From the NCBI GenBank assembly GCA_018268755.1, contig JAFDVW010000019.1, forward strand, positions 26,348 through 90,347: a stretch of 64,000 nucleotides of DNA, read 5' to 3'. Source of the DNA: Acidobacteriota bacterium. Its GTDB lineage: Bacteria > Acidobacteriota > Terriglobia > Terriglobales > Acidobacteriaceae. The notes under the pieces were generated by a model. It saw only the letters and a program-made list of their open reading frames with translations. It searched no databases and was not told the DNA's origin. Made by a program: the position numbers and the translations under genes. Numbering within the stretch: the stretch's first letter is position 1; each line of letters opens with the position of its first letter. This document shows positions 7,652-44,365 of this stretch, one piece after another.

Positions 7652-8704
7652 TTATACCTTTCGGGTTTTCCTGTTCACCCTGGATTCCGGCTTTGACTTT
7701 GCGGAAACCTTAGACTTCGAGGCGCGCTTTGGGCTCTCCTGCGCCTGGGCGGCCAGATCGACAGCCTCGCTTTTGGCTTCGACGCCTGCAAGGTTGGGTA
7801 GCTTCTGCTTCAGCACTGCGGCGGGGGCGAAGAGGTCTCCGTGCTTTTCCACGCGGGCGAGGACCTGCTCGGTCTGAAAGCGCAGGAATGCGGGGTCTTT
7901 CTTTTTGAGGCAGGCTTCCACTTCCTCCCAGGTGATGGGGGTGGAGACGGTGGGGTGCTCGCGGGCGCGCAGCGAGTAGACCGAGATTGTGGTCTTGTGC
8001 TCGTCGTTCTGGCTCCAGTCGATAAAAACTTTTCCGCCGCGCACTTCCTTCTTCATCTCTGAGACCACGAGGTCGCGATGGGCATCTTCCAGCAAGTGCG
8101 CCAGGGCCCGGGCGAAAGTCTTGGTGACTTCGTAGCTGGTTGGCGTGTTCAGCGGCACGTAGATTTGCATGCCCTTGGAGCCGGAGGTCTTGGGAAAACT
8201 CTGTAGGTGAAAGCGCTCGAAGATATCGCGCAGCCACAACCCCACCTGGCAACACTGCACGATGGTCGCGGGCGGGCCGGGATCGAGGTCGAAGACCATC
8301 ATGGTGGGCGATGGCAACGCCGCGGCGCGGGAGAGCGAAGGATGCAACTCCAGACCAGCAAGATTGGCGATCCAGACCAGCGTGGGCAGATCGTCCGCCA
8401 GGATGTAGTGCACAGTGCGGCGATTGTGGCGACTCCAGACCGGCGTGGTCTTGACCCAATCCGGGCGATGGGTGGTGGCATTCTTTTCGAAGAAGAATTC
8501 TGCGTCCACCCCGTTGGGGTAGCGTTTGAGGGTAAGCGGGCGGTCTTTCAGGTGAGGAAGCAAGACGGGCGCGATGCGCGCGTAGTAATCAATGACCTGG
8601 CCCTTGGTGAAGCCGGTAGACGGGTAGAGGATTTTGTCGAGATTGGAGAGCTTAAGGTGCTTGCCCTGAATTTCAACAACCGGCGAGTTGGCAGGAGAGG
8701 GCAT
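7652..8704 (-). CDS. Stand-alone LigD-type primase-polymerase domain protein
   Basis: This 350-residue protein matches the polymerase domain of bacterial DNA ligase D, which fills gaps and adds ribonucleotides at double-strand breaks in Ku-dependent end joining. Visible motifs are the metal-binding pair Asp139/Asp141 in MMVFDLDPG, SGSKGMQIYVPL (172-184) and the third acidic residue Asp229 in KVFIDWSQND, followed by KTTISVYSLR. Gln180 occupies the place where many LigD polymerases have a histidine. There is no ligase or phosphoesterase domain, so it is a single-domain form, and the last 50 residues are basic and low-complexity. Neither Ku nor a ligase gene lies in the window. Activity is inferred from the motifs. 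Confidence 0.9.
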   Translation of the reverse strand: MPSPANSPVVEIQGKHLKLSNLDKILYPSTGFTKGQVIDYYARIAPVLLPHLKDRPLTLKRYPNGVDAEFFFEKNATTHRPDWVKTTPVWSRHNRRTVHYILADDLPTLVWIANLAGLELHPSLSRAAALPSPTMMVFDLDPGPPATIVQCCQVGLWLRDIFERFHLQSFPKTSGSKGMQIYVPLNTPTSYEVTKTFARALAHLLEDAHRDLVVSEMKKEVRGGKVFIDWSQNDEHKTTISVYSLRAREHPTVSTPITWEEVEACLKKKDPAFLRFQTEQVLARVEKHGDLFAPAAVLKQKLPNLAGVEAKSEAVDLAAQAQESPKRASKSKVSAKSKPESRVNRKTRKV

Positions 8705-8856
8705 GGGTGATTTTAATATGGGGGCGCTCTTTTGGCGCGATGGAGGCCATGCTGGAAGGGCATGTTGGGGAGAGGGTAGGGGTGATCGCCCCTCGGAAGG
8801 ACAAAGGGGGAGGAGGCTCCAAGCTAAAGAGGTCTGCCAGGCATGCTCTTATGCTT

Positions 8857-8980
8857 ACGCGGGCGAGGGCGCCCGCGCCACACGAGGGCCCGCGCCACAC
8901 GAGGGCCAGCGCCACACGAGGCTTACGCAACCTACGCGGGCGAGGGCGCCCGCGCCACACCAGGGGCCCGCGCCACACAC
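8857..8980. repeat. Family A repeat cluster upstream of the M16 peptidase pair
   Basis: Two full copies of the GCGGGCGAGGGCGCCCGCGC element with CCACAC tails (about 8859-8883 and 8938-8960) are joined by short GCGCCACACGAGG repeats. The 357-base gap between the divergent LigD-type and peptidase genes contains nothing else recognisable. Confidence 0.8.
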
Positions 8981-9061
8981 AGCTGGGTTTGACAAGGGGG
9001 GTTTTTCCCACGTAACTTCAAACCTCTGCCCATGTTGTGCGTCCAACCTCGTGGAGGTCTG

Positions 9062-10573
9062 ATGAAAACGCGCGTTTTGTCTTCTTTTCTCTTCTTCTTC
9101 TTGCTGGCCGGCCTGGCCTCGGCCCAGGACCTGGCGTCCTTTGAGAAGCGGGTCACGGTCAAAAAGCTGGCCAACGGCCTGACGGTCATTGTCTGCGAGC
9201 GGCCGGAAGCGCCGGTGTTCTCCTTCTATACCCATGTGGATGCGGGATCGGTGCAGGACCCGATGGGCAAAACCGGCCTGGCCCACATGTTCGAGCACAT
9301 GGCCTTCAAGGGCACGACCAACATCGGCACCACCGACTACGCCGCCGAAAAACCGCTGCTGGAAAAAATTGAGCAGGCTTATGCCGCCTACATCGCGGAG
9401 CGCGACAAGCGGGTGGGGCGCGACGAGCAGAAGCTGCAGCAGCTGGAAAAGGCCTGGAAGGACGACATTGCCTCGGCCAACAAATATGTGAAGCCCAACG
9501 AGTTTCCGCAGATCCTGGAGAACAACGGCGCGGAAGGGTTGAACGCATCGACCAGCAACGACGAGACCACCTACTACTATTCTTTTCCGGAGAACCGGCT
9601 GGAATTATGGGCCTACCTGGAATCCGAGCGGTTTCTGCATCCCGTAATGCGGCAGTTTTACGACGAGCGCAACGTGGTGATTGAAGAGCGCCGCATGCGC
9701 ACGGACAGCAATCCCATCGGGCGGCTGCTGGAGCAGTTCACGACCGCCAGTTTCGCCGCCCATCCCTATCACCGGCCGGGGATCGGCTGGCTCTCCGACC
9801 TGAATTCGTTTTCCGCGACCGACGCGGAGAACTTCTTCCACACCTATTACATCCCTTCCAACATGGTGGTGGCGGTGGTGGGGGATGTGAAGACGGCGGA
9901 GACGCTGGCGCTGGTGGAGAAATATTTTGGCCGCATTCCCTCGGGCGAGAAACCGGATGAGCGCACCACGGTGGAGCCTCCGCAGAACTCGGAGCGGCGG
10001 GTAGTGCTGCGCGAGCTGGCGCAGCCGCTGTATCTCGAAGGCTATCACCGTCCGGACTATCGCAGTAAAGATGACGCCGTGTACGACGCGATTGCCGACT
10101 TGATGTCGTCGGGCCGGACTTCGCGTCTGTACCGGGCCCTGGTGCGGGACAAGAAGATCGCTTCTTATTCCGCCGGGTTCAGCGGACTGCCGGGCAACAA
10201 GTATCCGCATCTTTTCGCCTTCTATGCCTTCCCTCTTCCCGGGCACAGCACCGAGGAAGTTTCGGCGGCCATTCATGCGGAAATTGACCGGCTGAAGAAG
10301 GAAGACGTCAGCGACGAAGAGCTGAAGATGATCAAGACGCGCGCCAAGGCCAACCTGCTGCGCGGCCTGGACAGCAATCAGGGCCTGGCCTCGCAGCTGG
10401 CGGTGTATTACTCGCGCTATGGCGACTGGCGAGAGTTATTCAAGACGGTGGACCGCATAGACCAGGTGACCAAGGCGGACATCCGCCGGGTGGCCAGCGA
10501 GACCTTTACTTCGGAGAACCGGACCGTGGGCATTATCGAAACCAAGACGGCGGGCAAAGGAGGTGCGCAATGA
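9062..10573 (+). CDS. Secreted/periplasmic M16 zinc peptidase, catalytic partner
   Basis: This 503-residue protein starts at ATG 9062, preceded by GGAGG; the N-terminus MKTRVLSSFLFFFLLAGLASAQ is a signal peptide. The inverted zinc motif HMFEH sits at residues 75-79, with the downstream glutamate helix YDERNVVIEERRMR about 75 residues beyond the usual first spacing because of an inserted charged segment (about 95-140). The C-terminal half carries the non-catalytic M16 repeat. M16 enzymes of this class degrade peptides in a clam-shell cavity. The next gene overlaps by four bases (ATGA) and encodes an M16 protein lacking the zinc motif, so the two probably form a heterodimer of catalytic and accessory subunits. 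Confidence 0.93.
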   Translation: MKTRVLSSFLFFFLLAGLASAQDLASFEKRVTVKKLANGLTVIVCERPEAPVFSFYTHVDAGSVQDPMGKTGLAHMFEHMAFKGTTNIGTTDYAAEKPLLEKIEQAYAAYIAERDKRVGRDEQKLQQLEKAWKDDIASANKYVKPNEFPQILENNGAEGLNASTSNDETTYYYSFPENRLELWAYLESERFLHPVMRQFYDERNVVIEERRMRTDSNPIGRLLEQFTTASFAAHPYHRPGIGWLSDLNSFSATDAENFFHTYYIPSNMVVAVVGDVKTAETLALVEKYFGRIPSGEKPDERTTVEPPQNSERRVVLRELAQPLYLEGYHRPDYRSKDDAVYDAIADLMSSGRTSRLYRALVRDKKIASYSAGFSGLPGNKYPHLFAFYAFPLPGHSTEEVSAAIHAEIDRLKKEDVSDEELKMIKTRAKANLLRGLDSNQGLASQLAVYYSRYGDWRELFKTVDRIDQVTKADIRRVASETFTSENRTVGIIETKTAGKGGAQ

Positions 10574-12714
10574 AGAAGCCCTTGCAGCAGACCTCTCTCT
10601 TGCTGGCGCTGGCCATCCTGCTGGGCAGCGGGTATTCCGCGGCGGCGCAGGCAACCGACTGGAAGCAGATCAAAATCGCGCCCTTGCCGGAGTTCCATCC
10701 CAAGGAGCCCAAGCGCATCCAACTGCCCAACGGCATGGTGATCTTCCTGCAGGAAGACCATGAGCTGCCGTTGATTGACGGCGTCGCGCGCATTCGCGGC
10801 GGATCGCGTTCCGAGCCGGCGGCCAAGACCGGCCTGCTCGACATTTATGGCGAGACCTGGCGCACGGGGGGAAGCAAGAGCCAGACCGGCGACCAGCTGG
10901 ATGATTTTCTGGAGGCACGCGCCGCCAAAGTCGAGACCGGCAGCAACGCCGACTCCACCACGATTTCCCTGTCCTGCTTGAAGGGCGACTTCGACGATGT
11001 GTTCAAAGTCTTCAGCGAGCTGCTGCGCCAGCCGCAGTTCCGCGAAGACAAGATCGACATTGTGCGCAAGCAGATGTTCGACGCCATTTCCCGCCGCAAT
11101 GACGACGTGGACGATATTGTGGGCCGGGAAGCCGTCAAGCTGGCCTATGGAGCGGACAATCCTTATGCGCGGGAGAACGAGTACGCGACGGTCGCGGCGG
11201 TGACGCGGCAGGACCTGCTCGACTGGCACCAGGCGCACGTAGCCCCCAACAACATCATTCTCGGCCTGGTGGGCGACTTTGATTCGGCCGCCATGGAAGC
11301 CAAGCTGCGCGCGGCGTTCGGCGCGTGGGCCAAGGGGCCGGAGGCCAAGAAAGAGGAGATCGCCTTCCATCCCGCGAAACCCGGCTACTACCTGGTCACG
11401 AAAGAGGACGTGAACCAGAGCAATATTCAAATGGTCACGCTGGGCACGGTGCGCAGCAATCCCGACTACTATGCCATCCGCGTCTTCAACGAAGCCTTTG
11501 GCGGGGGATTTTCCTCCCGGCTGTTCCGCGAAGTGCGCACCAACAAGGGGCTGGCCTATGCGGTAGGTGGAGGCATTGGCACCACATTCGATCATCCCGG
11601 CATTCTGCGGCTGGTGACCAGCACCAAGAGCCAGAGCACGGTGGAGGCGATCCAGGCAATTTTCGCGGAAATCGACAAGCTGGCCCAGTCTCCCCTGACC
11701 GACACGGAGATCCAGCAAGCCAAGGACTCGATCCTGAACGGGTTCGTTTTCAATTTCGATTCGGCCGAGAAAGTCCTGCAGGAGCGGATGGCCTATGAAT
11801 ATTACGGCTACCCGGCTAACTATCTGGAGCAGTTCCGTTCGGGCGTGGAGAAGGTGACGGCCGCGGACGTGGCGCGGGTGGCGGCGAAGTATCTGCATAG
11901 GGACCAGCTGGCGGTGCTGGTGGTGGGCAATCCTCCCGAGTTTGATAAGCCGCTTTCCTCGCTGGGCGCGGTGAAGGAGGTGGACATCACGATTCCTCCG
12001 CCGCCGGGCGCGGAGAAGGCGGAAGAAGCCAAGCCGTCGGCCTCGAACCCAGCCGGCAAAGCCCTGGCGGCAAAGATCGCTGCGGCTCTGGGCGGCGAGG
12101 CCAAACTGCAGGCGGTCAAGGCGGTGAAGATGGAAATCGCCAGCACGCAGAACTCGCCCCAGGGCGAAGTTCCCATCACGGTGAACAGCACGATTGTGTT
12201 TCCGGACCAGCTGCATGCCGCGCTGCAGGGGCCCATGGGAAATGTGACGCTGGTGGCCACGCCCAAAGCCGCCTTCATGGCCATGGAAGGCATGGGGGTG
12301 CGCGATTTGCCGGCAGCGCAAAAGACGGAGATGCTGGCCCAGATCAAGCGCGACCTGATCTATATCGGACAGCATGCCAGCGACCCGGCCTTTGTGTTCG
12401 CCGCGGCGGGCAGCGAGAAGATTGGCGCGACCGAAGCGCAAGTGCTGGACGTCAGCGGAGACGGGTTGGCGGTGCGCCTCTACGTCGACCCGAGCAATGG
12501 CCGGGTGCTGCGCGAAACCTACCAGACGGTGGGCCGCAGCGGGCCGGTGGAGGCGGTCACGGAGTTTGCCGACTGGCAGGAAGTGAGCGGGCTGACGCTT
12601 CCCCGGGTGCACAAGAATAAGCAGGGGGGCGAGGACTCGAGCGCCGCGCAGTATAAGTCAGTCCAGGTGAACCCCGCGGTGGATGCGAAATTGTTCGAGA
12701 AGCCGGCGGAGTAA
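10570..12714 (+). CDS. M16 peptidase-like accessory subunit with C-terminal extension
   Basis: This 714-residue protein begins with a signal peptide (MKKPLQQTSLLLALAILLGSGYSAAAQA). Residues about 50-470 form the two M16 half-repeats. At the place of HxxEH it reads GLLDIYGETWRTGG, so the zinc ligands are absent. The second half keeps the arginine-tyrosine type segment GGGFSSRLFREVRTNKGLAYAVGGG, which in M16 partners contributes to substrate binding. Residues about 485-714 are an extra domain rich in beta-type sequence, with an outer-membrane-lipoprotein-sorting flavour (VQVNPAVDAKLFEKP end). The four-base overlap with the upstream catalytic M16 gene indicates translational coupling. Function as the accessory chain is inferred from family knowledge. 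Confidence 0.9.
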   Translation: MKKPLQQTSLLLALAILLGSGYSAAAQATDWKQIKIAPLPEFHPKEPKRIQLPNGMVIFLQEDHELPLIDGVARIRGGSRSEPAAKTGLLDIYGETWRTGGSKSQTGDQLDDFLEARAAKVETGSNADSTTISLSCLKGDFDDVFKVFSELLRQPQFREDKIDIVRKQMFDAISRRNDDVDDIVGREAVKLAYGADNPYARENEYATVAAVTRQDLLDWHQAHVAPNNIILGLVGDFDSAAMEAKLRAAFGAWAKGPEAKKEEIAFHPAKPGYYLVTKEDVNQSNIQMVTLGTVRSNPDYYAIRVFNEAFGGGFSSRLFREVRTNKGLAYAVGGGIGTTFDHPGILRLVTSTKSQSTVEAIQAIFAEIDKLAQSPLTDTEIQQAKDSILNGFVFNFDSAEKVLQERMAYEYYGYPANYLEQFRSGVEKVTAADVARVAAKYLHRDQLAVLVVGNPPEFDKPLSSLGAVKEVDITIPPPPGAEKAEEAKPSASNPAGKALAAKIAAALGGEAKLQAVKAVKMEIASTQNSPQGEVPITVNSTIVFPDQLHAALQGPMGNVTLVATPKAAFMAMEGMGVRDLPAAQKTEMLAQIKRDLIYIGQHASDPAFVFAAAGSEKIGATEAQVLDVSGDGLAVRLYVDPSNGRVLRETYQTVGRSGPVEAVTEFADWQEVSGLTLPRVHKNKQGGEDSSAAQYKSVQVNPAVDAKLFEKPAE

Positions 12715-26548: not shown

Positions 26549-27748
26549 ATGGCGGAATTCGTCGTAAAAATCGCGGATGAACAGGGCCACCTGCAACATC
26601 AGGTGGAGCACGGATACTCGGAAGCGGAAGTCCGCGAGCGGTTTGTGCAGCAGGGGTTTCTGGTTTACTCGGTGAAGCCGCAGGGCTTGTTAAGCGGGGG
26701 AGCGGTACGGCGGCGCAAGCTACGGCAAAGCCAGTTTCTGATTTTCAACCAGCAATTTCTGACCCTGATCAAGGCCGGCCTGCCCATCTTGAATTCGCTC
26801 GATCTGCTGATCAAGCGACAGAAGGACGCCAACCTGAAGGGCCTGCTGGAAAATGTGCGCGACCGGGTGAAGAGCGGCGAACTGCTCTCCGACTCCTTCG
26901 CAGCGCAGCGGGTGTTCCCCAAGCTCTACACCACGACCCTGCTGGCGGGGGAAAAAAGCGGCAACATCGAGGAAGTGCTGAGCCGGTATATCGCCTTCCA
27001 GCGCATGGCGCTGACCTTCAAAAAGAAGCTGGCGGTCTCGCTGGTGTATCCCACGCTGCTGGTATGTGTGGTCAGCGTGATGTTCATGTTTTTGATCACC
27101 TACGTGGTGCCGCAGTTTGCCAAGCTGTTTGACAATCTGGGCGGGCAACTGCCGTGGATCACCACGGTCATGCTGTCGATCGGGCTGGGAGCGCAGAAAT
27201 ACGCGCCGCTGGTGGTGATTGGATTGGCCGTGCTGGCGGTGGCCGCGTGGCGCTGGAAAAGCACCGACCAGGGTGCGGAAAAAATTGACGGATTTCTTTT
27301 GTCGCTGCCCATGTTGGGCGACATCTGGCTGAAATATCAGGTGGCGAATTTTTCCCGCATGCTTTCGACCCTGCTGGCGGGCGGCTTGCCGCTGGTGCCC
27401 TCGCTGGAAACTGCCGGGGCCTCCATGGGGAGCCGGCGGGTGCTGAACGCCATCGCGGAAAGCACGGTGCGGGTGCGCGAGGGCCAGCCGCTGGCCAAGA
27501 GCCTGGAACAGCAGAAGATTTTCCCCGAGCTTTCCGTGGAGATGATTGAAGTCGGCGAATCGACGGGGGCGCTGCCGGCGATGCTGAACTCGGTGGCGGA
27601 GTTTTACGAAGAAGACGTGCAAACGGCGTTGGGCGCGGCCATGGCCCTAATCGAGCCGATGATTCTGATTGTCATGGCGGTGTTTGTAGGCGGCATTTTG
27701 ATTTCTCTTTATATGCCGATCTTTACCCTGGGCTCCAGCATGCACTAG
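26549..27748 (+). CDS. pilC: Type IV pilus/type II secretion inner-membrane platform protein
   Basis: This 399-residue protein has the PilC/GspF layout: an N-terminal cytoplasmic segment (to about 60), two T2SSF domains and three or four membrane segments, with FNQQFLTLIKAGLPILNSLDLL, TTTLLAGEKSGNIEEVLSRY and the repeat version MIEVGESTGALPAMLN. It recruits the assembly ATPase to the pilus base. Order here is platform protein before ATPase, the reverse of many pil operons. The ATPase gene starts 46 bases downstream. Confidence 0.93.
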   Translation: MAEFVVKIADEQGHLQHQVEHGYSEAEVRERFVQQGFLVYSVKPQGLLSGGAVRRRKLRQSQFLIFNQQFLTLIKAGLPILNSLDLLIKRQKDANLKGLLENVRDRVKSGELLSDSFAAQRVFPKLYTTTLLAGEKSGNIEEVLSRYIAFQRMALTFKKKLAVSLVYPTLLVCVVSVMFMFLITYVVPQFAKLFDNLGGQLPWITTVMLSIGLGAQKYAPLVVIGLAVLAVAAWRWKSTDQGAEKIDGFLLSLPMLGDIWLKYQVANFSRMLSTLLAGGLPLVPSLETAGASMGSRRVLNAIAESTVRVREGQPLAKSLEQQKIFPELSVEMIEVGESTGALPAMLNSVAEFYEEDVQTALGAAMALIEPMILIVMAVFVGGILISLYMPIFTLGSSMH

Positions 27749-27793
27749 GAGCGGGTCGGAAGTTGGAAAAACAGGCGGGCTTGGGATTTCAGC

Positions 27794-39037: not shown

Positions 39038-39376
39038 TCATTCAGAAGTCAATACTATGTCGTGGGCTTTTCGCAGAAGACCAAATCCAACAACTCCAGC
39101 ACAAACAAGCCAAATAAAGGCCGCTATACTTCGCTGGTAACTGTCGCCAATCAATTCTGGTCGCAGTAGCGCGAGCATCTTGACCATAGCCAACAGCGAG
39201 ATCAGTACGAGTATCACCTTCTCTGACGCGCAGGTAAACAGTTTCCACACAGAAACAAGTATCAAGACTGAAGCACCGAGCCACAACGGCGCCAGCGGAT
39301 CGTGCTTACCTGCAGGTATGCGGTCGACCAGCCTGAAGAGATTGAGTATGGCATTGCCTGTACACACCAAGATCAA
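39038..39376 (-). CDS. Putative small membrane protein downstream of the RHS cassettes
   Basis: This 112-residue frame has three hydrophobic segments (APLWLGASVLILVSVWKLF, VILVLISLLAMVKMLALL, IAAFIWLVCAGVVGFGLL). It begins with TTG; no ATG is available and an in-frame stop lies 21 codons upstream, so the start is doubtful. Base composition is more AT-rich than in the flanking housekeeping genes. It is the last of four small membrane-protein frames after two RHS cassettes and could be an orphan immunity gene. Confidence 0.5.
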   Translation of the reverse strand: MILVCTGNAILNLFRLVDRIPAGKHDPLAPLWLGASVLILVSVWKLFTCASEKVILVLISLLAMVKMLALLRPELIGDSYQRSIAAFIWLVCAGVVGFGLLRKAHDIVLTSE

Positions 39377-39547
39377 TATTGCTGCAAGCCACTTATTCTT
39401 AAGTAAACAAATCCTGTCGTGGTGCAGAGGCGGTCCTCTTACTTATGAAATCAAAAGTGCCCAGGTCCTTCGCATTGGGGACAGCCGGGTAGGCCACCCG
39501 CCTATTCGCCACGCCGTAAGCATAGGTCGCAGCCAAGGGCCTCCTCT

Positions 39548-39844
39548 TCAGACCATCATGGGCAGACCAGACACGATAAAAGCTACAACGGCCACTGCCA
39601 ACGACATGCCCCCCAGCTCTCGACGAGCGTCCACTATTATGGCAGCAATTGCAGAAACGACAGAAGTCAATCCACCGCAAAACCACACAGCTGATGTAAG
39701 CCTGAAAAGTGCGGCGTTCTGACCAGACAGGTGGACGACTACCACCCCGCCCCAAATGGTCGTGATTTCAAAAACGCAGATTGCGAGAGAAATAGATACC
39801 ATCTTGTGTTGCGTGCAAAATTTCGCAAAAGAGATCATTGGCAC
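39548..39844 (-). CDS. Putative small membrane protein downstream of the RHS cassettes
   Basis: This 98-residue frame starts with GTG 39844 or, more likely, ATG 39838, preceded by GGGAGGGGG. Three hydrophobic segments are visible (ISLAICVFEITTIWGGVVVV in part, LTSAVWFCGGLTSVVSAIAA, MSLAVAVVAFIVSGLPMMV). No family is recognised. Position and type fit a membrane immunity protein against a lost or unseen RHS tip. Confidence 0.55.
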   Translation of the reverse strand: MPMISFAKFCTQHKMVSISLAICVFEITTIWGGVVVVHLSGQNAALFRLTSAVWFCGGLTSVVSAIAAIIVDARRELGGMSLAVAVVAFIVSGLPMMV

Positions 39845-39974
39845 AACCCCCTCCCAGCGGGAAGAAGATACTGCCCTGTGACTCTATAGATTGACTGATT
39901 CGATAACCGTGTCGGCTCCGTTAGGCCGAGTAAACTTGCCACCCGCTCGCAGGAGGGTCCGCGTTTGGGGCTAT

Positions 39975-40211
39975 TCAGTAATCATCAGGTTTGTCAGGCC
40001 AGTATCCGGAATCTTTTCCGGAGGACAATATAACGGCTACCACAAGCAAAAGGGCAAACAGCAACACATAGGTTAGAATGCCCCTGCCGGTAGTGGGCGT
40101 CCACCTAAGCAAAACGAAGCCGAGAATGCCCCCAGCGACTATGGTTACTCTCAGAAGCGTCCTCCTCGTTAGCGCGGTTATTGCCACGGACTGCCAGCCC
40201 CTTTCGAGCAC
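39975..40211 (-). CDS. Small membrane protein coupled to RHS cassette 2 (immunity candidate)
   Basis: This 78-residue protein starts at GTG 40211, two bases after the stop codon of RHS cassette 2, so translation is probably coupled. Two hydrophobic segments occur (RVTIVAGGILGFVLL and GILTYVLLFALLLVVAVIL) with a charged C-terminal tail. RHS toxin tips are usually followed directly by their immunity gene, and the position here fits. There is no sequence-family match to support it. Confidence 0.6.
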   Translation of the reverse strand: MLERGWQSVAITALTRRTLLRVTIVAGGILGFVLLRWTPTTGRGILTYVLLFALLLVVAVILSSGKDSGYWPDKPDDY

Positions 40212-40213
40212 AT

Positions 40214-41154
40214 TTAAGGAAAGCTCAACGCCGCGGTTCCAGTAGCGATAGGGTCAGGACCCGCAGTTATCGCGCAAGTGCCGTGGGCGATTATGTCGCC
40301 TGCGGTGGCATAAGCCATCGCTGGAATCGCGGTTTTCTCAACCGCTCCGAGTGACACCTCAGTTCCAAGCTCCAGTTTCGAACCTACGGTTACGGTTCCC
40401 TTGAGGGTCGTGAGCTCTGTTGTTCCGGACATGGCGCCTGATCCAAACAAACCGCCTAACTTTCCAAAAATAGCGGTGCCCCACTCTTTCCAGTTGCTTC
40501 CAAACTCAGGGTTCCATCCGGGCAGCAACGCCACAGGACTGCCAAACTTCACAGCTGTCCCCGCCGAGGAATTGTAGAAGTTGCTCACGCACTCTTTTTC
40601 CTTTTGCTGTGGAGTTTGAGGATTTCCGTTGTTTGCGGGAGTCGAACCACCCCCAGCACCTCGATCCGGAGGTTGGGGATGCGCTTCGGGGTGCTTGACA
40701 CCAACCGGCCCCTGTCCCCCTCCGCCTCCAAAGTCCCCAGGCGTTGTTGTACCGTTTTGGGAGGGAGTACAGCTATTGGTAAGTGAACATACCGAGATCA
40801 ACAATCCGTCGAGGTCTATCGCGATGGTTGGACTGTTTCTCACGTAGGCATAGCGATTCCAGCTTTGGGGATCCGACGGATTCACCGCGTCTTGCCCGGC
40901 CGGGTCGGGGGGAGGTCCATCGCCCTTGGGTGATCGAATACTCCCGATAGAGAAAGTCGTAGAGGCCATTCTGCGTGTCGGTGCTCTGCCCCGTAAAGCT
41001 GGCATCCGTGGTGCCACTGCCCGCGTATTTTCCCCCAAAGGGCGCCACCGCTCCATCGTAAAACAAAGTGCGGTTGGCCAGTCCCTGGGGCGAGAATTTT
41101 TCTGGCTAGCACGGAAGGGTCAACCCGGGCGGCCGACCCACCCTAAATTTCGTT
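40214..41154 (-). pseudogene. RHS C-terminal cassette 2 (core duplicate plus unique tip), frameshifted
   Basis: The RHS-associated core reads YAGSGTTDASFTGQSTD and GLYDFLYREYSITQGRWTSP in one frame, then DPAGQDAVNPSDPQSWNRYAYVRN in another. The switch is at a G run near 40907-40913, which has one more G than the intact copy at 42250-42510. After the core comes a unique tip of about 190 residues: a Gly/Pro-rich linker, then KECVSNFYNSSAGTAVKFG and a Gly-rich end. There is no ATG at the front, and no full-length rhs gene is present, so it looks like a silent tip cassette. A base-calling error in the homopolymer is possible. Confidence 0.75.
40905..41154. repeat. Duplicated RHS core segment, copy 2
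   Basis: About 250 bases are near-identical to 42250-42510, ending at the shared CCCTAAATTTCG. The right edge supplies the stop codon of the 139-residue membrane protein gene, so that gene's end coincides with the duplication boundary. Differences between copies are scattered single bases plus a few indels, including the one in the G run. Confidence 0.88.
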
Positions 41155-41562
41155 CGAGCTATCCAAGAAGTAGGCCAAGTACGCCGCGAGAACTACGTAT
41201 TCGATCCCGGCCAGCACCGCGTAGAGCACCCAGGGCGCGGTTGCTACTCGCATAAGGAGGACTACTCCTAGGACGCAATGCACGGCAAAGAAAAGGCCGA
41301 GGAACAACCAGAATCTTTGCTTGTTCCATGATCGCCGACATGCACGGATGGCGTAACCGAAGACGATTGCGGTCGTTCCTGCAAACCCCAACCACTTCAG
41401 AGGCAGGTTCGGGGAGCCGCCCGTCCTGGCTTGGTGTATAGCAAACATCCAGACCGAGATCACGATCAGGACGGCGATTGCCACATAAAGCAGCCAGTCT
41501 TTGATCCTCCCCGATTTGGTCTGCCGAGGCATGCGGCTCCGCGTCGCGCTCGTGGGACTCAA
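41143..41562 (-). CDS. Four-segment membrane protein coupled to RHS cassette 1 (immunity candidate)
   Basis: This 139-residue protein overlaps the end of RHS cassette 1: a TTG at 41560-41562 lies across its stop codon, while ATG 41532 with an upstream GGAG is the more standard start (129 residues). Four hydrophobic segments are seen, for example WLLYVAIAVLIVISVWMFAI, LGFAGTTAIVFGYAI and VLYAVLAGIEYVVLAAYLAY. The stop codon lies inside the duplicated core of the next cassette. Immediate position after an RHS tip suggests an immunity protein; no family is recognised. Confidence 0.62.
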   Translation of the reverse strand: MSPTSATRSRMPRQTKSGRIKDWLLYVAIAVLIVISVWMFAIHQARTGGSPNLPLKWLGFAGTTAIVFGYAIRACRRSWNKQRFWLFLGLFFAVHCVLGVVLLMRVATAPWVLYAVLAGIEYVVLAAYLAYFLDSSNEI

Positions 41563-42512
41563 TGGCAGCCTCCGGTCGCCATGCTGTACATCTCAGTGCC
41601 AAACCCTTGAGCCAGAGCCAAGTCGACCGACATCATACCACCCGAAGCTGCCGTGGCGTTGGCGTCGGCAATCATGCCTCGCACAATGCTCGATTTCATG
41701 GGATAGATCAGTCCTGTCCCACCGAGATAGTTTGGTGCCGAGGCCGCATACTGCACGGCGGCGTTGTATTTGCTGGCAGCGAGAACGGCTGCGGTGCCTT
41801 CACCCGCTGATGACAGGCTTGGTGAGAACGGATTAAGGGCATCTGCAGTTGCTTTCCCAAAGACGTTTACGCAGCCGCCCTGCTTGAACTCGTCAGTAAA
41901 GTTCTTCCAGGAGAAGAGGTTCTTGGCGAACGCTTTCCACCAACCAAGGTTCCCGTTCTTTGCGGGCAAGAAAGGCGGAGCCGCCGGAAATCGTCGAAAG
42001 GGCATTTCATAATGAAGTTGGAACGGGTTAAGGATCATATGAGGCAGATCGTCAGCGTAATCATGGACCTCTGGCACTTTCTCCTTCTTGGGAGGATCAT
42101 CGGGCATCGGCGTCGCTACAACACAAGCGTCGTCTGTCGGTAGACAATCTCGCAATCCAAACGGATCTACCCGACTGAGCACGTTGTTTCGAACGTAGGC
42201 ATACCGGTTCCAGGTCTGGGGATTGGCGGGATCGGCCGCATTGATCCCGGCCGGGTCGGGGGAGGTCCATCGCCCTTGAGTGATCGAATACTCCCGATAG
42301 AGAAAGTCGTAGAGGCCGTTCTGGGTGTCGGTGCTCTGCCCTGTGAAGCTGGCATCGGTGGTGCCACTGCCCGCGTATTTTTCCCCAGAGGGCGCCACCG
42401 CTCCATCGTAAAACAAAGTGCGGTTGGCCAGTCCCTGGGGGCGAGGATTTTTCTGGCTAGCGAGGAAGGGTTCCGTCCAACCCGGGCGGCCGACCCACCC
42501 TAAATTTCGCAA
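41559..42512 (-). CDS. RHS C-terminal cassette 1 (core fragment plus unique tip)
   Basis: The frame encodes up to 317 residues. Residues about 35-120 are the end of an RHS core: YAGSGTTDASFTGQ, GLYDFLYREYS, RWTSPDPAG and NRYAYVRNNVLSRVDPFGL. The rest is a unique tip: FLPAKNGNLGWWKAFAKNL, FTDEFKQGGCVNVFGKATAD and a Gly/Ala-rich end with AQGFGTEMYSM. No nuclease, deaminase or other toxin motif is recognised. The frame opens with TTG and has an in-frame stop just upstream, so there is no proper start or secretion signal. This fits an orphan tip that would need recombination into a full rhs gene. None lies in the window. Confidence 0.72.
   Translation of the reverse strand: MRNLGWVGRPGWTEPFLASQKNPRPQGLANRTLFYDGAVAPSGEKYAGSGTTDASFTGQSTDTQNGLYDFLYREYSITQGRWTSPDPAGINAADPANPQTWNRYAYVRNNVLSRVDPFGLRDCLPTDDACVVATPMPDDPPKKEKVPEVHDYADDLPHMILNPFQLHYEMPFRRFPAAPPFLPAKNGNLGWWKAFAKNLFSWKNFTDEFKQGGCVNVFGKATADALNPFSPSLSSAGEGTAAVLAASKYNAAVQYAASAPNYLGGTGLIYPMKSSIVRGMIADANATAASGGMMSVDLALAQGFGTEMYSMATGGCH
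42250..42510. repeat. Duplicated RHS core segment, copy 1
   Basis: The intact copy of the segment also found at 40905-41154. Both copies encode the same RHS core end and stop being similar just after RYAYVRN, exactly where RHS tips diverge. Confidence 0.88.
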
Positions 42513-42539
42513 AGAACGCGAAATTTAGAATGGGGCACC

Positions 42540-44365
42540 CGGCTGTCATCCTGAGCGAAGTTCGGGCGGCGCGAAGCGCCGCCCGATGAGAAGCGCTGTA
42601 CTGCCGGGGTTCTTAATCAGAGCTGCGAGGCGTTCTCCCTGTGACTAGAGAGGTTTCGGGGAGAATTCCTGGAGGGGCCTCGGGCAGAGCTGGCGCCATA
42701 GGGGTCCTTCGACTACGCATGGAATCCGCGTTGCGGATTTCATGCTCCGCTCAGGATGACAGGGGTTTGTTCAGGGGGGCCCACATATCTTCGGGGCGTC
42801 ACTGGCGGACATCCGCCCTACGCCTGAGTTCTGGCGGGTGGCGTACCCTTTGAACTTTCTGGATCACAAACCCTGAGGGGTGCCGTCCTCCGCGTGGCGT
42901 AGAGCAGCTAGAGAATGCCTTGAGTCGTCCAATTAGGTTAGAAGTGCAGGGGTCCTTCGACTGCGCATGGAATCCGCGCTGCGGATTTCATGCTCCGCTC
43001 AGGATGACAGGGGTTTGTTCAGGGGGGCCCACATATCTTCGGGGCGTCCCCGGCGGACAGGAGTGTCCGCCCCACATGTGAGTTCTGGCGGGTGGTGCAG
43101 CCTTTGAACTTACCCTGAGGGTGCCGTGCTTCGCGTGACGTAGGGCAGCTAGAGAATGCCTTGAGTCGTCCAATATAAGTTAGAAGTGCAGGGGGCCTTC
43201 GACTGCGCATGAAATCCGCGTTGCGGATTTCATGCTCCGCTCAGGATGACAGAGATTTATTCAGGGGGGTGGCTACATATCTCCGGGGTGCCTCACTGGC
43301 GGACATCCGCCCTACACCTCAGTTCTGGCGGGTGGCGCAGCCTTTGAACTTACCCTGAGGGTGCCGTGCTTCGCGTGACGTAGGGCAGCTAGAGAATGCC
43401 TTGAGTCGTCCAATTAGGTTAGAAGTGCAGGGGGCCTTCGACTGCGCATGAAATCCGCGTTGCGGATTTCATGCTCCGCTCAGGATGACAGGGGTTTGTT
43501 CAGGGGGAGCCCACTTATCCTAGGAGCGTCCCCCGACGGACATCCGCCCTACACCTGAGTTCTGCGGGTGGCGCAGCCTTGAACTTTCAGATCACAAACC
43601 CTGAGGGTGCCGTCCTTCGCGTTGGGTAGGGCACAAAGAGAATGCCTTGAGTCGTCCAATATAGGGTTAGAAGTGCAGGGGTCCTTCGACTGCGCATGAA
43701 ATCCGCGCTGCGGATTTCATGCTCCGCTCAGGATGACAGAGGTTTGTTCAGGGGGGCCCACATATCCTCGGGGCGTCCCCCGACGGACATCCGCCCCACG
43801 CCTGAGTTCTGGCGGGTGGCGCACTCTTGAACTTTCAGATCACAAACCCTGAGGGTGCCGTGCTTCGCGTGGCAAAGGGCAGCTAGAGAATGCCTTGAGT
43901 CGTCCAATATAAGTTAGAAGTGCAGGGGTCCTTCGACTGCGCATGAAATCCGCGCTGCGGATTTCATGCTCCGCTCAGGATGACAGGGGTTGTGGGAGGA
44001 AACCGCTGCTGCAACCCATCTCTTGATCTTCGCAGGCAGAGCGGGCGGGGGCGCCCGCTCCACACCTGGGCAAGATTATCCCCATCCCTTAGACGCTGCT
44101 CGGTGCAGGCAGCGGATTGTGCAGAGCGCTGGCATTGGCGTTGGGATAGGACATCGTGTGCTGTGGGTCTTGGGGCACAAAGAGAATGCCTTGAGTCGTC
44201 CAATTAGGTTAGAAGTGCAGGGGTCCTTCGACTACGCATGGAATCCGCGCTGCGGATTTCATGCTCCGCTCACGATGACAGTGATTGTGGGAGAAAGCCG
44301 CTGCTGCAACCCATCTCTTGATCTTCGCAGGCAGAGCGGGCGGGGGCGCCCGCTCCACATCGCAG
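42540..44365. repeat. Noncoding tandem array of about 245-bp REP-containing units
   Basis: The marker CCTTCGACT begins at 42706, 42954, 43196, 43435, 43683, 43930 and 44225: spacings of 248, 242, 239, 248, 247 and 295 bases. Each unit holds a CATGAAATCCGCG...CGCGGATTTCATG hairpin, CGCTCAGGATGACA, a CGGACA...TGTCCG-like segment and GAATGCCTTGAGTCGTCCAAT. The last two units are altered and each contain a family A-like GCGGGCGGGGGCGCCCGC element (about 44041 and 44339). No credible gene lies in this 1.85-kb stretch. Confidence 0.9.

Follow-up and report, generated by a model that had tools for sequence, protein, structure and literature searches.

Orphan Rhs core-tip cassettes with putative membrane immunity genes in an Acidobacteriota genome

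Why does the genome of an Acidobacteriota bacterium carry two ends of an rhs gene, each joined to a different C-terminal tip and each followed by a gene for a small membrane protein? Displaced rhs tips, or orphan rhs-CT/rhsI modules, have been described in other bacteria (Jackson 2009, PMC2935791; Poole 2011, PMC3150448; Koskiniemi 2014, PMC3967940), and a preliminary description of the present locus read it as displaced toxin tips with their immunity genes, held in silent storage. The locus lies in a stretch of 64,000 nucleotides (the window) on contig C10; the draft genome comprises 5.36 Mb in 36 contigs and is rated 100% complete. Its features are listed below in window coordinates, from the highest to the lowest.

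42500-42528, no strand assigned: dispersed palindrome CTAAATTTCGC-aaagaa-CGCGAAATTTAG, at the 5′ edge of cassette 1
42185-42509, minus strand: Rhs core end, copy 1 (TIGR03696), including about 75 non-coding leader bases; reading frame continues into tip 1
41562-42152, minus strand: tip 1, 197 aa after DPFGL, with a Cys-bracketed C-terminal domain (41562-41957) and the motif PMKSSIVR
41143-41532, minus strand: immunity gene 1, 129 aa from ATG, a four-helix membrane protein
40834-41152, minus strand: Rhs core end, copy 2, with a leader as in copy 1; frameshifted
40217-40801, minus strand: tip 2, 195 aa, a Gly/Pro-rich linker followed by a Cys-bracketed hydrophobic domain (40217-40609)
39975-40211, minus strand: putative immunity gene 2, 78 aa, two predicted transmembrane (TM) stretches, starting 2 bases after tip 2
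39548-39844, minus strand: small membrane-protein frame, 98 aa, a possible orphan immunity gene
39038-39376, minus strand: small membrane-protein frame, 112 aa, a possible orphan immunity gene

The two core copies, at 42509-42185 and 41152-40834 on the minus strand, are 88.7% identical across 326 alignment columns (BLASTN within the window, E = 9e-110). The preliminary description had correctly recognized two copies and gave their length as about 250 bases; the stretch common to both cassettes is about 325 bases, of which some 75 bases form a non-coding leader ending in the dispersed palindrome. Copy 1 scores above the curated cut-off of TIGR03696, the Rhs_assc_core model (E = 1.3e-16), and copy 2 is scored by the same model in pieces only, because its reading frame is broken. 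Copy 2 loses the frame twice, through a one-base deletion in its 5′ part and a 5G-to-6G insertion at 40907-40912, leaving only the final stretch of its core in the reading frame of tip 2. Cassette 1 has the structure of orphan rhs-CT/rhsI modules, an Rhs core fragment that continues in frame as a variable C-terminal tip, and cassette 2 has this structure for the last core part only.

As first described, each core copy passes into a different tip just after the NRYAYVRN motif. The two tips are unrelated: the core alignment stops at the tip junction, and searches with either tip do not find the other. Identity between the core copies is 93% before a breakpoint near 42245 and 71% beyond it, shortly ahead of the tips, and the best two-segment fit to the alignment was matched by only one of 2000 column shuffles (permutation p = 0.0005). 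Read from the sequence, a common leader and core, differing tips and a decay of identity at the junction are what a crossover within the core would leave, which upholds the earlier proposal of recombination through the shared core. Such a crossover agrees with the published displacement model, which permits recombination between two dissociated tips (PMC2935791). Because both cassettes share the leader, it probably came after truncation at the palindrome. Another genome of the survey described below (G383, contig C75) carries two consecutive cassettes with a nearly identical leader and different tips, a further sign of exchange between orphan cassettes.

The shared part of the cassettes begins within the palindrome, near-identical copies of which occur on contigs C4, C5, C7 (two), C8 and C9. 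The edge of cassette 2 carries only half of the palindrome (41143-41152), and this half provides the TAG stop codon (41143-41145) of immunity gene 1; the cassettes are therefore fused end to end. Directly upstream of the cassettes, window positions 42630-44360 contain a direct repeat in seven imperfect copies, each about 150 bases long, at a spacing of about 245 bases and apparently non-coding. The same palindrome also accompanies a short piece of Rhs repeat at G000:C9:48125-49617; with two small unknown genes close by, this piece looks like another broken tip/immunity island.

We examined whether tip 1 and its neighbor are inherited together in a survey of 399 genomes of the class, with separate profile searches for tip 1 and for the membrane protein. 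The first tip 1 relative came from a genome of the same family (G001; 39% identity), where a membrane-protein homologue lies directly downstream. A small alignment found relatives in three Acidobacteria MAGs, including Candidatus Korobacter versatilis, among genomes where a single tip 1 sequence as query had found no match. The tip 1 profile identified 11 of the 399 genomes. An immunity relative lies directly downstream of the tip in 10 of these, and in all 10 that can be tested, the locus of the eleventh (G400) stopping at a contig edge. The two profile matches are adjacent by coordinates in 9 of the 11 genomes; in the tenth (G383), the frame downstream of the tip matches a larger immunity profile (E = 4e-11). 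Eight of the 10 co-inheriting genomes were absent from the building of either first profile. Most tip 1 family members stand behind an Rhs core with NRYAYV/DPxG. The family alignment shows two conserved cysteines enclosing about 100 residues, and nearly all members carry P[MLF][RK]SSx[VFY]R as a motif.

Neither the tips nor the membrane proteins had a match above the curated cut-off in Pfam, NCBIfam or PADLOC (for tip 1 and the immunity 1 family, in Pfam or NCBIfam), in agreement with the earlier statement that the tips carry no recognized toxin motif. Structure prediction, which had been proposed as a check, gave a model of four long helices for immunity protein 1 (mean pLDDT 83) and an all-helical, Ala/Gly-rich model of low confidence for tip 1 (mean pLDDT 64). 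Searches of the PDB with tip 1 gave nothing significant by sequence or by fold, the fold search being run on this weak model, and the tip has no classical TM stretch. Across 22 aligned immunity 1 sequences, the glutamate E111 is invariant and D12, F74-W75 and H85 are near-invariant.

The immunity 1 family is wider than the tip 1 family (39 versus 11 of the 399 genomes), often without an Rhs frame upstream. A second member is present in the window's own genome, at C8:224479-224880, with 70% amino acid identity to immunity gene 1. The DNA identity of the two copies is 77% over 405 bases, spanning just the gene; the C8 copy adjoins neither tip nor core, and the dispersed palindrome lies 0.25 kb away. 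With dN of 0.21 and dS of 0.72 (dN/dS about 0.3), most of the divergence between the copies arose under purifying selection, where the ratio spans their entire divergence, including any time spent beside tips. In two other genomes (G376 and G452), the tip has shrunk to a short frame and the immunity gene is intact. Some immunity 1 homologues that have no Rhs frame upstream could have another role. In three genomes of one genus (loci L105, L107 and L110), homologues follow a gene that we take from its sequence to be aroB-like, with no Rhs frame near, in a conserved orphan position.

Small membrane proteins follow both tips at once, as had been noted (129 aa at 41143-41532 and 78 aa at 39975-40211), and the two further small hydrophobic frames are also present, at 39548-39844 and 39038-39376. 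Tip 2 has relatives in few genomes; all of them are Rhs tips and share its two-cysteine layout. Downstream of each comes a small hydrophobic frame that has no detectable homology to the 78-aa gene, and no homologue of that gene was detected beside the tip 2 relatives at the loci compared. The 98-aa frame has only weak matches in relatives, and of 144 further genomes in the family, none has a relative of the 112-aa frame. Because homologues of these three frames were uninformative or not found, their putative immunity role is assigned by position only. The pairing of displaced tips with immunity genes in the preliminary description is supported for cassette 1 by co-inheritance, and the neighbor in cassette 2 has no detectable homologue beside relatives of its tip.

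Silent storage presupposes a gene into which the tips can be moved. Genome-wide searches, with the core DNA, the core model and the RHS repeat as queries, found no full-length rhs gene with the window's core; the preliminary description had itself named such an absence as an outcome that would refute it. A hidden full-length copy is unlikely in a 36-contig draft rated complete. Other Rhs matches are fragments or have different cores, on contigs C9, C11, C14, C17 and C35, and several of these fragments are broken. No type VI secretion system (T6SS) sheath gene was found in the genome. Two core-tip frames of 476 and 479 aa with another core (G000:C14:17944-18180 and 27539-27775) each precede a predicted 3-TM protein, and their tips have no Pfam match above cut-off. 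On C35, an 861-aa open frame (locus L026, positions 8483-11065) combines Rhs repeats and core with a portion of an outer-membrane beta-barrel protein (PF25183, E = 7e-45) and is evidently a rearranged gene.

Relatives show related arrangements. Three of them (G029, G030 and G031) carry a full-length rhs gene, with frames of 1700-2000 aa, followed by short core-tip frames, and two others (G039 and G053) carry arrays of four or five short core-tip frames. A gene with at least two TM stretches follows 15 of 24 tips in relatives and 8 of 149 other long frames, a rough control that contains mechanical frames, possibly not genes.

We consider it probable that the locus represents a relic array of orphan rhs-CT/rhsI modules whose immunity genes are retained for protection, and that tip 1 is a putative toxin, probably acting at the membrane. 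According to this model, tip exchange within a common core would have displaced the C-terminal tips of Rhs polymorphic toxins together with their respective immunity genes, and the window would hold the tail of an array of one full-length gene plus orphans whose main rhs gene has been lost. Tip and immunity protein would act as a contact-dependent toxin with self-protection wherever a strain possesses a complete rhs gene. Tip 1 would then be a probable membrane-acting antibacterial domain and its neighbor an integral-membrane immunity protein. With no full-length rhs here, the tips are probably silent, neither made nor delivered; the immunity genes would still be visible to selection and are probably kept against related bacteria that bear the same tip. 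Toxicity, membrane target and retention for protection are what we infer. The tips may attack at the membrane, because the immunity protein is a predicted membrane protein, the tip is predicted to be Ala/Gly-rich and helical, and membrane proteins are in excess behind the tips of relatives.

There is a variant of this model that differs in the toxin's activity. Tip 1 might be an enzyme with P-x-[RK]-S-S-x-x-R and the two cysteines as its active site, the membrane immunity protein shielding a membrane or periplasmic target. The strong local motif across about 10 divergent members and the lack of a classical TM stretch are in its favor, yet tip 1 matches no enzyme family or fold and its prediction is all-helical and rich in Ala and Gly. 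In addition, membrane immunity proteins are, to our knowledge, the rule among known ionophoric tips. We regard an enzymatic tip as unlikely.

Two further explanations concern the fate of the array. The cassettes could be mere debris of an rhs locus broken by repeat-mediated rearrangement, with membrane frames that are no longer used, which would fit the frameshift in copy 2, the several other broken Rhs fragments and the repeats on the upstream side. However, the frames of tip 1 and of the four membrane proteins are all still open, the second immunity copy has diverged under purifying selection, and other genomes repeatedly combine an intact immunity gene with a degraded tip, so that we judge pure decay unlikely. 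The original proposal, in which the tips can be swapped through the shared core into an active rhs gene of their own strain, could draw on the shared core with its crossover footprint, on the relatives in which orphans follow full-length genes, and on orphan/main rhs recombination reported in Salmonella (PMC3967940). Against it stand the assembly, which has neither a full-length gene with this core nor a detected T6SS sheath gene, and the frameshifted core of copy 2. The frameshift and the missing full-length gene together make reuse of the tips in this strain unlikely, and we consider storage for an active gene of the same genome very improbable.

The relic array can be compared with known systems. 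Like orphan rhs-CT/rhsI modules, it combines a partial core and a different tip at the NRYAYV/DPxGL region without a normal start, an immunity gene directly downstream, an array of dissociated tips and core-mediated recombination. Unlike them, it lies in a genome without a main rhs of the same core, the usual companion and outside the definition of the fragment; its cassette edges are fused to a dispersed palindrome, its toxin and immunity families are undescribed, and its host is an acidobacterium rather than an enterobacterium. Tse5/Tsi5 of Pseudomonas aeruginosa, a pore-forming tip that is likewise Rhs-borne (PMC10684867), is through Tse5's membrane depolarization the best parallel to a tip with a membrane protein as its guard, the membrane activity of tip 1 being putative. 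The absence of a PDB sequence or fold match between them is to be read with a Tse5 tip that is not resolved in its structure (PMC11630599) and a weak tip 1 model. The CDI ionophore toxins of the CdiA-CT EC93 family (PMC11630599) share polymorphic helical toxin domains and very polymorphic immunity proteins, but their carrier is CdiA, their ionophore domain has five helices and no sequence relation was detected. The tip-less immunity copy, here and in relatives, resembles orphan immunity genes of interbacterial effectors (PMC12247911, PMC10539506), except that the sheath gene search was negative in the window's genome and protection by the C8 copy is putative.

Orphan Rhs tip arrays are an established arrangement. 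New are the family of tip 1 and immunity protein 1, a second immunity copy that has no tip, the drop in core identity before the tips and the occurrence of several orphan cassettes in a genome that lacks a complete rhs; a literature search that reached few subscription journals found no publication on the family. As a tentative and rather doubtful generalization, a broad class of two-cysteine Rhs tips in Acidobacteriota may insert into membranes and be countered by fast-diverging membrane immunity proteins, with weapon-less strains stocking free-standing immunity genes. Tip 1, immunity gene 1 and the tip-less second copy form a ready test set that includes cross-protection. Acidobacteriota are abundant in soil, and conflict between bacteria has received little study in this phylum. 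The locus contributes a toxin-immunity family that is clearly marked by its hallmarks, in a genome where immunity genes seem to outlast the weapon.
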